Source: Chryseobacterium paludis (GTDB lineage: Bacteria > Bacteroidota > Bacteroidia > Flavobacteriales > Weeksellaceae). From it: a stretch of 64,000 nt of DNA. The translations under genes were made by a program, and so were the position numbers. Below the pieces are notes generated by a model, which saw nothing but the letters and a program-made list of their open reading frames with translations, was not told where the DNA came from and made no database searches. The stretch covers positions 1,426,001 through 1,490,000 of the forward strand of contig NZ_CP099966.1 of the NCBI RefSeq assembly GCF_025403485.1. Direction: 5' to 3'. This document shows positions 47,535-49,381 of this stretch, one piece after another (positions within the stretch are counted from its first letter, which is position 1; every line of letters starts with the position of its first letter).

Positions 47535-48701
47535 TTATATTGATTTTAAAATAATTTTTCCTTTTTTGGATTGGGTAAAAATAAGATATTGCTCACCACC
47601 ATCCTTTAAACCATATTTCTTCTTAATTTCATCTGGCTTCAGAGGATAGTTCTTAGAAATAATATTAAATTGCTCTTTCTTTTTAATCTTCTTACTATCA
47701 ATAACTTCCATCTCTAAAACTCTCCCAGGAAAATTACTGATCATTTTATCGGAAGTGTAAATATGGGTATTGGGATGAAGTTTCTCCAAATTAAATTTTT
47801 CTGAAATTAAATTAAAGATTCCACATTTTAATATTGAATTATTGGGTAAATAAATAAATCTTTCAGGCTCAGTATATTCAGAGTGAGCATTTTCTTCTTC
47901 ACCAAATTGAAATGTAAAAGGTGATTCATTAACCTCCAGGTTCACACAATGGCAAATAATATTTCCTGAATTTTTATTTGACAAAGATATAACAACCTCC
48001 TTTACATCATTTCTGACAGCAATAATATCAATTCTTGAAATTTGCTTTACTACAGATATCAGATACTTCAAATCAATTAATGGTGATAGTTTTATAATAA
48101 CTTCATTTGAGATAGATAGTAAATGATCCTGAATTTCTAAAATATCGGGAGACAAGTCTTCTAAAAGAAAAACTTTATTCTTGTTGCTATCCCTTCTTGC
48201 GGGATCTAAATATATAACATCAAAAAAATCTTTATTTTCACTTAAAAAATCTTCCAGATTTGTGTTGATGAATTTTGCTTTTTTTCCTAAAACAGTCCAA
48301 TTATGTTCAACAATCTTTAAGAGCTCTGTATTCTGTTCTATTAAGGTAACATCTTTAAAATTTTGGGATAGGTAATAAGCATCTATTCCAAAGCCACTTG
48401 TAAGATCAATAAACTTATTCCCATGTAAAGATTCTGATTTATAAAGGGCTGTTTTTTCTGAAGATGCTTGCTCTAAATTAAGCTGTGGTGGAAAAACAAT
48501 TTCATTGTGCAGTAAAAAGGGGAATTTTTTCAATGCCACTTGTTTTCCTTTTATTTGCTGAACAATTTCCTGCATCGTCACTTCAGGAAATGGAGATTTT
48601 TTCAATAATAAAGAATGCAAATCTGAATTTGTATTTGCATTAATGAATTCTTGAACCTTTTGGTCTAGTATTTTGTTTCCCACAGATTTCACAAATATCA
48701 C
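47535..48701 (-). CDS. Class I SAM-dependent methyltransferase with THUMP-like C-terminal domain
   Basis: The protein is 388 aa if read from the GTG at 48701. The SAM-binding motif FIDLTSGFGIDAYYLS (about residues 95-110) is followed by the acidic LIEQN and the catalytic-type YLDPARRDSN (about 165-175). The last 80 residues (LEKLHPNTHIYTSDKMISNFPGRVLEMEVI...KKYGLKDGGEQYLIF) match the THUMP-like domain of Bacteroidota RNA methyltransferase-like proteins. The start is uncertain: the first nine codons lie inside an inverted repeat flanking a decayed GxxExxY gene, so insertion may have replaced the native start. GTG at 48683 is an alternative. Confidence 0.83.
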   Translation of the reverse strand: MIFVKSVGNKILDQKVQEFINANTNSDLHSLLLKKSPFPEVTMQEIVQQIKGKQVALKKFPFLLHNEIVFPPQLNLEQASSEKTALYKSESLHGNKFIDLTSGFGIDAYYLSQNFKDVTLIEQNTELLKIVEHNWTVLGKKAKFINTNLEDFLSENKDFFDVIYLDPARRDSNKNKVFLLEDLSPDILEIQDHLLSISNEVIIKLSPLIDLKYLISVVKQISRIDIIAVRNDVKEVVISLSNKNSGNIICHCVNLEVNESPFTFQFGEEENAHSEYTEPERFIYLPNNSILKCGIFNLISEKFNLEKLHPNTHIYTSDKMISNFPGRVLEMEVIDSKKIKKKEQFNIISKNYPLKPDEIKKKYGLKDGGEQYLIFTQSKKGKIILKSI

Positions 48702-48923
48702 AGATTAAAAAACCATTAATCAATAGTTCCATTTATTTTTCTAATTATACTTTTAGCAATAAAGTCTGTATTAAAATTAATTAATATGCCCAACTTAAAA
48801 CCAGTTAATTTAAAATAAGTTAATAATTGTTTGTGATGCACTTTTCATTTTCATTCATTTGTGTAGTTTTATTTGAAGTAATTTACAAATCAGTGTGATT
48901 TGTGAAATCTGTGGGAACAAAAA
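48671..48923. mobile_element. Remnant element: inverted repeats around a decayed GxxExxY gene
   Basis: The 18-mer CCCACAGATTTCACAAAT at 48679-48696 recurs as its exact complement at 48898-48915. Similarity extends on both sides (TTTTGTT outside; CACA...ATT inside), giving imperfect inverted repeats of about 34 bp at 48671-48705 and 48889-48923. Between them lies the C-terminal end of a GxxExxY family gene. No target-site duplication was established. I infer a small mobile or formerly mobilised cassette. Confidence 0.6.
48716..48841 (-). pseudogene. C-terminal fragment of a GxxExxY family protein gene
   Basis: On the minus strand, 41 codons and a stop read VHHKQLLTYFKLTGFKLGIL followed by INFNTDFIAKSIIRKINGTI and D. 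This corresponds to the conserved end of GxxExxY proteins (H..QLLTYL+L...K.GLLINFN....... I.R..NG), a PD-(D/E)xK-like family. An in-frame TGA precedes it two codons upstream of the Val, and no N-terminal half is found, so it is a truncated relic. It lies between the inverted repeats. Confidence 0.8.
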
Positions 48924-48940
48924 TTTACTCCAATAAATAT

Positions 48941-49381
48941 TTATCTTTTGTAAAAGATATAATCCGTTAATAATGGCTCAACCCCACTTTGCTTTAATAA
49001 AGAGTTGATCTGACCTCTATGATAAGTTGAATGATTAATAGCATGAAAAAGCATCTCAAACACACTATTTTCAAATTTGGTGCCTCTTGAATTTTGATAA
49101 CCTATTCTGTTATCTAAATTAAAATTTTGAACAATCTGAATACTTTTTAAAAAATTCTGATGGTTGATTTCTTCCAGATCTTCAAGTGGATTTATCTGCC
49201 AAACCCCAAACGGTTGTTCTCCCAATATTCTTGCATTCCAGATTTGTTGAGCGTCAAGCGTATGGTTTATCAATGCAATGGTTTTTTCATCAATTTTCGA
49301 GATTTCTTCTTTAATAAGTTTTATAATTTCTCGATTATAATGATGAGTATATTCAAATAAATCAATTAACTTTTCATTCAT
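48941..49381 (-). CDS. DinB family protein
   Basis: The protein is 146 aa, a four-helix DinB-like bundle. The metal-binding His pattern is visible: a first His in LINHTLDAQQIWNARILG (about residue 40), and the later pair in LFHAINHSTYHRGQINSLLKQSG (about 113-136). Members include thiol-dependent metalloenzymes; the substrate is unknown. Its ATG overlaps the stop codon of the upstream mutA-like gene by one base, so it is translationally coupled to it, an unusual partner. Confidence 0.88.
   Translation of the reverse strand: MNEKLIDLFEYTHHYNREIIKLIKEEISKIDEKTIALINHTLDAQQIWNARILGEQPFGVWQINPLEDLEEINHQNFLKSIQIVQNFNLDNRIGYQNSRGTKFENSVFEMLFHAINHSTYHRGQINSLLKQSGVEPLLTDYIFYKR

Follow-up and report, generated by a model that had tools for sequence, protein, structure and literature searches.

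The window analysed here, a stretch of 64,000 nucleotides from Chryseobacterium paludis (contig NZ_CP099966.1, positions 1,426,001 to 1,490,000), holds what is left of a long-resident unit, now decayed, in which a gene of the GxxExxY family (TIGR04256; PF13366, PDDEXK_3) stands between inverted arms built from short units in tandem. The left arm (48670-48706, plus strand) and the right arm (48888-48924, minus strand) were 37 nt each, 86% complementary and separated by 181 nt, and they matched one another at E 3.3e-5 in a search against the whole 5.05-Mb genome. The units CACAGATTT, CACAAATAT and CACAGATTA followed one another in the left arm at a spacing of 9 bp, its outer end was TTTCCC, and the right arm was its mirror. 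A preliminary description of this DNA had reported an 18-bp identical core with similarity reaching about 34 bp; the inverted repeat is real and the similarity does extend past the core, over the 37 nt given above, but the exact core is slightly longer, consisting of the 20-mer TTCCCACAGATTTCACAAAT at 48677-48696 (+) and 48898-48917 (-).

Between the arms lay an open reading frame (ORF) of 41 codons on the minus strand (48716-48841), correctly recognized earlier as a remnant of the C-terminus of a GxxExxY protein. It matched PF13366 with 31.9 bits, above the gathering score of 22, and the C-terminus of TIGR04256 with 31.5 bits, below the cut-off of 35; intact orthologues at the same site, for example in genome G073, exceeded the TIGR04256 cut-off. 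Orthologues at this site carry the name Chryseobacterium in their sources, and the protein of G073, a genome of the same genus, is identical to a named one. The relic locus was also recovered by a whole-genome profile search at E 1.9e-6. PF13366 was the sole Pfam family that the relic matched, no transposase family was among its matches to Pfam and TIGRFAM-type profiles, and no Rfam family reached its gathering score within 48400-49200. What remains of the gene at its 5' end, ATGAATGAAAATGAA (about 48844-48858, minus strand), was located by eye through comparison with the intact orthologues, whose start MNENE it resembles, and it is out of frame with the C-terminal part. Because of this resemblance, the relic was read as the first codons of the gene followed by a deletion and by the C-terminus in another frame. 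The deletion removed about residues 6-86 of the 127-residue orthologue, including the invariant D67, E77 and K79; both the GxxExxY motif and the D..ExK core, which were invariant in the 58 intact proteins compared, are gone from the sequence of the relic.

The two neighbouring genes also lie on the minus strand. The left one (47535-48701) encodes a methyltransferase/THUMP-like protein (PF22013, PF18096) that served as the anchor of the site and was seen in 66 of the 66 site stretches examined, and the right one (48941-49381) encodes a DinB-family protein (PF05163) that was seen in 46 of the 66; in three other site stretches viewed in detail, DinB was not beside the GxxExxY gene. At 48670-48701 the left arm overlaps the first codons of the left ORF, and it may provide the GTG start of this ORF.

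Some part of this 1.6-kb neighbour stretch was matched in all 118 genomes of the genus searched. In 29 of the 30 loci first read (L089 was left out), the methyltransferase/THUMP-like gene and DinB stood 3-30 bp apart at nine loci, 95-287 bp apart at fourteen and 470-657 bp apart at six. Each of the six long gaps held an intact GxxExxY gene, enclosed in four of the six by CACAGATT-type arms, and in a second set from the orthologous site the arms enclosed 10 of 12 intact genes; in L083 and L091 the repeats formed a hairpin beside an intact gene rather than enclosing it. The fourteen intermediate gaps included the window locus, two other relics and six in which a palindrome unlike the arms, of the GCTTCGAC..CAGCATGACA kind, was present. 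Such a palindrome (GCTTCGAC..TCAGCATGACA) was noted in this intergenic site in L071, L072, L074, L078, L084 and L086. The two checks proposed in the preliminary description, whether the repeats flank intact GxxExxY genes and whether relatives have an empty site, were thus both answered at this site, where intact genes stand in the same arms and orthologous loci differ by insertion or deletion.

The preliminary description had gone further and taken the unit for a mobile cassette and this copy for a deleted, non-autonomous insertion. The repeat-bounded unit stood, but the mobility of this copy was not supported, since several observations mark it as a local decay product rather than a fresh insertion: 1) the distances of the site gene tracked those of its two neighbours (r 0.524 and 0.505, with r 0.472 between the neighbours; n=13, including L431), and its mean distance of 0.226 against 0.238 and 0.234 indicated that it diverged no faster than they did, 2) the 130 genus loci sampled, which were the highest-scoring among the matches listed and not a random sample, fell, when clustered by their flanks, into 13 sites, every one of them shared by more than one locus (L041, L042, L044 and L046, which a wrong frame and orientation had split off, were counted in site 0), 3) the intact, decayed and absent states were scattered over a tree built from the left neighbour in 60 genomes, needing 24 changes against a shuffled-label mean of 25.7, with L431 scored intact by query span despite an internal gap, and 4) comparison by eye of filled with empty sites, which have diverged from each other, showed no target-site duplication. 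Genes of the site lineage (at least 70% identity, full length) were present in 28 of the 118 genomes; at least 12 genomes carried a decayed gene, the window copy being one of these. The median ratio of nonsynonymous to synonymous substitution rates (dN/dS) over 55 pairs of the site gene was 0.09, indicating purifying selection. Because the gene tracks its neighbours, occupies few shared sites and has its states scattered over the flank tree, the site gene was read as an old resident with repeated loss.

These results bear on the explanation that the unit is an ordinary mobile element, that is, a cassette resembling an insertion sequence or a miniature inverted-repeat transposable element (MITE), with the arms as terminal inverted repeats. 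MITEs are gene-less remnants with inverted ends, and gene-less derivatives of the present units are like them in this respect; filled and empty sites also occur. In L416, L419 and L431 the GxxExxY gene lay on the other side of DinB, and L416 and L419 still had arm remnants at the former place; a hop or a move of DinB would account for the change of side. Unlike MITEs, the units have arms of 9-10-bp repeats and a gene that rarely moves. Similar units whose flanks differed formed 84 pairs; the four loci of top pairs and two tree-chosen pairs that were inspected were all at orthologous places. With the few shared sites, the neighbour-like gene distances, the lack of a visible target-site duplication and a relic that matched no transposase family, a mobile element of the ordinary kind is quite improbable.

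The enclosed gene was not peculiar to this site. TIGR04256 was matched in 111 of 118 genomes of the genus, 65 of 120 of the family and 152 of 296 of the phylum. Arms reaching the threshold, an arm score of at least 15, enclosed the gene at 68 of the 130 loci of the genus and at 47 of the 68 loci of the family (five of the 68 belong to the genus itself, and some of these were already in the sample). For the phylum the count was 24 of 30, and for the named loci, some of whose genomes may repeat others sampled, it was 58 of 80. The genus count was split by site, with arms at 68 of the 83 loci outside site 0 and almost none at the 30 best-scoring loci, nearly all of which were site 0. By their record titles, the named loci included Verrucomicrobia, Lentisphaerae, Cyanobacteria, Chloroflexi, Geobacter and Acidobacteria; many were metagenome-assembled genomes, some titles possibly reflecting contamination, and in L338, L346 and L363 the motif was missing in the frame called. 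The same score was reached by only 4 of 60 control ORFs of at least 100 residues in the window and by 7.5% of mismatched arm pairs from the named loci, 26 of 80 of which beat every mismatched partner; scoring used raised gap costs, mismatched pairs having earlier shown a 99th percentile of 62 and a maximum of 163.5. GxxExxY matches were found in 8 of 72,556 plasmid records, and a different query gave no match in 50,697 phage records. The only other GxxExxY copy of the C. paludis genome, at C1:4935736-4936091 (L004, L005), is frame-broken and lies at site 0, with AAACGCAAAG..CTTTGCGTT upstream of it.

The arms had a common anatomy. Their tandem units were spaced about 8-11 bp apart; of 308 armed loci, 181 had their autocorrelation peak at lags 9-10, and the best lag per arm was mostly 8-10. 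Of 181 loci, the units pointed toward the gene in 147, away from it in 7 and were tied in 27, by a pattern chosen after the units had been seen, and the commonest outer ends were TTTAAA, TTAAAC and TTAACC. The unit types GAT, RAG and TTAAG required 6 changes on a tree of 120 proteins, compared with a shuffled mean of 38.3. The tree was built from 174 loci after removal of 3 with mixed arms and 29 whose arms were of another type, with at most three retained per genus site; its columns were few in relation to its rows, and 30 forks were left open. The main GAT clade brings together proteins from other taxa and from Chryseobacterium sites 2, 7, 9, 12 and 13, and it stands apart from the Chryseobacterium sites of other unit types, three GAT loci falling elsewhere; since this clade crosses taxa and is split from other Chryseobacterium sites, host lineage alone is insufficient to explain arm type. 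Protein identity and arm similarity were correlated at r 0.149, where the null maximum was 0.084 and pairs sharing flanks had been left out. The arm unit sequence is therefore inherited with the protein clade, also between sites within one genus. Units of this kind are common in these genomes, so abundant intergenic repeats might by coincidence flank GxxExxY genes; however, the rarity of such arms around control ORFs and in mismatched pairs, together with an arm type that follows the protein tree, makes this hardly credible.

A second family, read as a control, had the same design. Inverted arms enclosed TIGR02436 genes in 20 of 30 loci from the phylum (L445-L474), against 3.2% of mismatched pairs, and these arms had a strict 7-bp period, with values of 0.56 at lag 7 and 0.60 at lags 14 and 21, the shuffled value being about 0.29. 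Unit length thus goes with the protein family, about 8-11 bp for GxxExxY and 7 bp for TIGR02436. We take TIGR02436 to be the S23-type four-helix family known from the intervening sequences of 23S rRNA.

The arm repeats also occurred away from the gene, where they stood between other genes either singly or as hairpins. The site-2 motif gave 843 hits in the 118 genomes, while its reversed control gave 12, and its median load was 8 in genomes with the intact gene, the gene's own arms having been subtracted, and 4 in the 78 without (p 0.0012). The TTAAG motif had a median of 17 in the 12 genomes with the site-6 gene and 2 in the 106 others (p 9.5e-8, uncorrected for kinship). Neither the site-2 nor the site-6 gene predicted the motif of the other. 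Outward-facing partners were found for 0 of 11 gene-less copies in the C. paludis genome and 2 of 21 in the genus. Triple regular repeats with spacings of about 104-109, 231-232 and 219 bp were seen at G017:C1:318881-319111, G032:C1:261687-262167 and G068:C13:123613-124068, and are reminiscent of bacterial interspersed mosaic elements (BIMEs).

This arrangement recalls the repetitive extragenic palindromic (REP) sequences and their REP-associated tyrosine transposases (RAYTs). As described in PMC2817692, RAYT genes have two flanking repeats in inverted orientation, scattered repeats without the gene and a stable orthologue position, and their repeat type follows the protein clade. GxxExxY units resemble them in the inverted flanking repeats, the dispersed repeats, the co-evolution of protein and repeat and the stable place of the gene. 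The two differ in the protein, which is of the PD-(D/E)XK type (PF13366) here and an HUH tyrosine transposase (IS200/IS605 type) in RAYT/REP; in the arms, which are arrays of about 8-11-bp units here and carry a GT(A/G)G head in REP; and in rate, the GxxExxY gene diverging like its neighbours and RAYTs being reported to diverge faster than theirs. Among open-licence papers, none was found on the role of GxxExxY, the two that name it do so once each and in passages on matters other than flanking repeats, and none was found for the six repeat strings searched.

On balance we favour, with somewhat better than even confidence, a RAYT/REP-like system that uses an unrelated PD-(D/E)XK protein. The intact orthologue was predicted from an alignment to have a PD-(D/E)XK-like fold (a single-sequence prediction reached a predicted local distance difference test score, pLDDT, of 44), and with this putative nuclease fold and its invariant D..ExK the protein would bind the arrays of units in its own arms and cut DNA there or at hairpins that the arms can form. 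Repair after cutting would keep the arm sequences and now and then copy them to new places, while the gene itself would rarely move and often be lost, a logic that would be that of REP/RAYT systems with an unrelated nuclease.

A number of observations weigh against this reading. Site 0, with 47 of the 130 genus loci, had no enclosing arms (0 of 47), and the likeness to the inverted flanks of RAYT/REP fails there; the second, frame-broken copy of the C. paludis genome belongs to this site, so that arms are dispensable for persistence of the gene. Enclosing arms are not unique to GxxExxY, since TIGR02436 loci have similar ones. An earlier test of gene against neighbour distances gave only r 0.19 (p 0.06; 12 loci, neighbours partly truncated). 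Nothing clearly showed transposition of the gene; the case nearest to it was the change of side across DinB, possibly a movement of DinB. The reversed TTAAG control had a background of about 1 hit per genome (median 1), seven genomes without the site-6 gene still had at least 7 TTAAG hits, and the related site-3 gene, present in 24 genomes, was accompanied by no rise in TTAAG (median 2). In kinship-independent pairs the association of gene and repeat was not significant, with 3 and 7 pairs and low power. The gene-less copies examined were mostly single arms: of 11 in the C. paludis genome 2 had an inward partner within 250 bp, and of 21 from the genus 4 did. Finally, arms of one locus paired modestly better than arms swapped between orthologues (20.3 vs 18.1, n=79, p 0.015), an advantage that was clear at site 2 (11 of 12) and lacking at most other sites.

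Since this pairing gain is modest, recognition of the units is favoured over strict stem pairing, which bears on the alternative of an RNA-level element whose arms form a transcript stem with the gene in the loop. In the intervening sequences of 23S rRNA with an S23-type ORF, as presented in PMC4990558, a small gene likewise lies within a long inverted repeat. The design shared with the TIGR02436 genes, presumably S23-type, would fit this explanation; however, the window locus lies between two protein genes and not in rRNA, encodes a different protein and matched no Rfam family at gathering score within 48400-49200, and at most sites own arms paired no better than swapped ones, so that an RNA-level element is very unlikely. 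Alternatively, GxxExxY may be a domesticated DNA-processing protein with a host function, for which the flanking units are operator or processing sites and the scattered copies further sites of action, with no spreading. Stable gene sites, divergence in step with the neighbours, purifying selection, arms matched to the protein clade and units that face the gene all suit such autoregulation, but the frequent decay and loss at one site, scattered copies that are lone arms or hairpins between other genes, and a TTAAG repeat far commoner where its cognate gene is kept (kinship uncorrected) do not, and we consider it unlikely.

Extending the favoured RAYT/REP-like reading, GxxExxY proteins may tentatively be seen, at rather less than even confidence, as dedicated nucleases of cross-phylum repeat systems, each clade reading its own 9-10-bp unit and keeping or multiplying scattered arrays (CGCAAAG, CACAGAG, CACAGATT, CATTAAG). 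TIGR02436 would then be a parallel 7-bp class, and arrays of short units with a cognate small protein a general design.

The repeat-bounded GxxExxY unit is real and far wider than the preliminary description supposed. Arms matched to a particular protein in many bacteria give a hint at what the GxxExxY family acts on, and with a DNA target matched to every clade, the function of this widespread family (152 of the 296 phylum genomes sampled) becomes directly testable. If the favoured reading is true, it would give an origin for common intergenic repeats, and the REP/RAYT way of life would have arisen with an unrelated nuclease.
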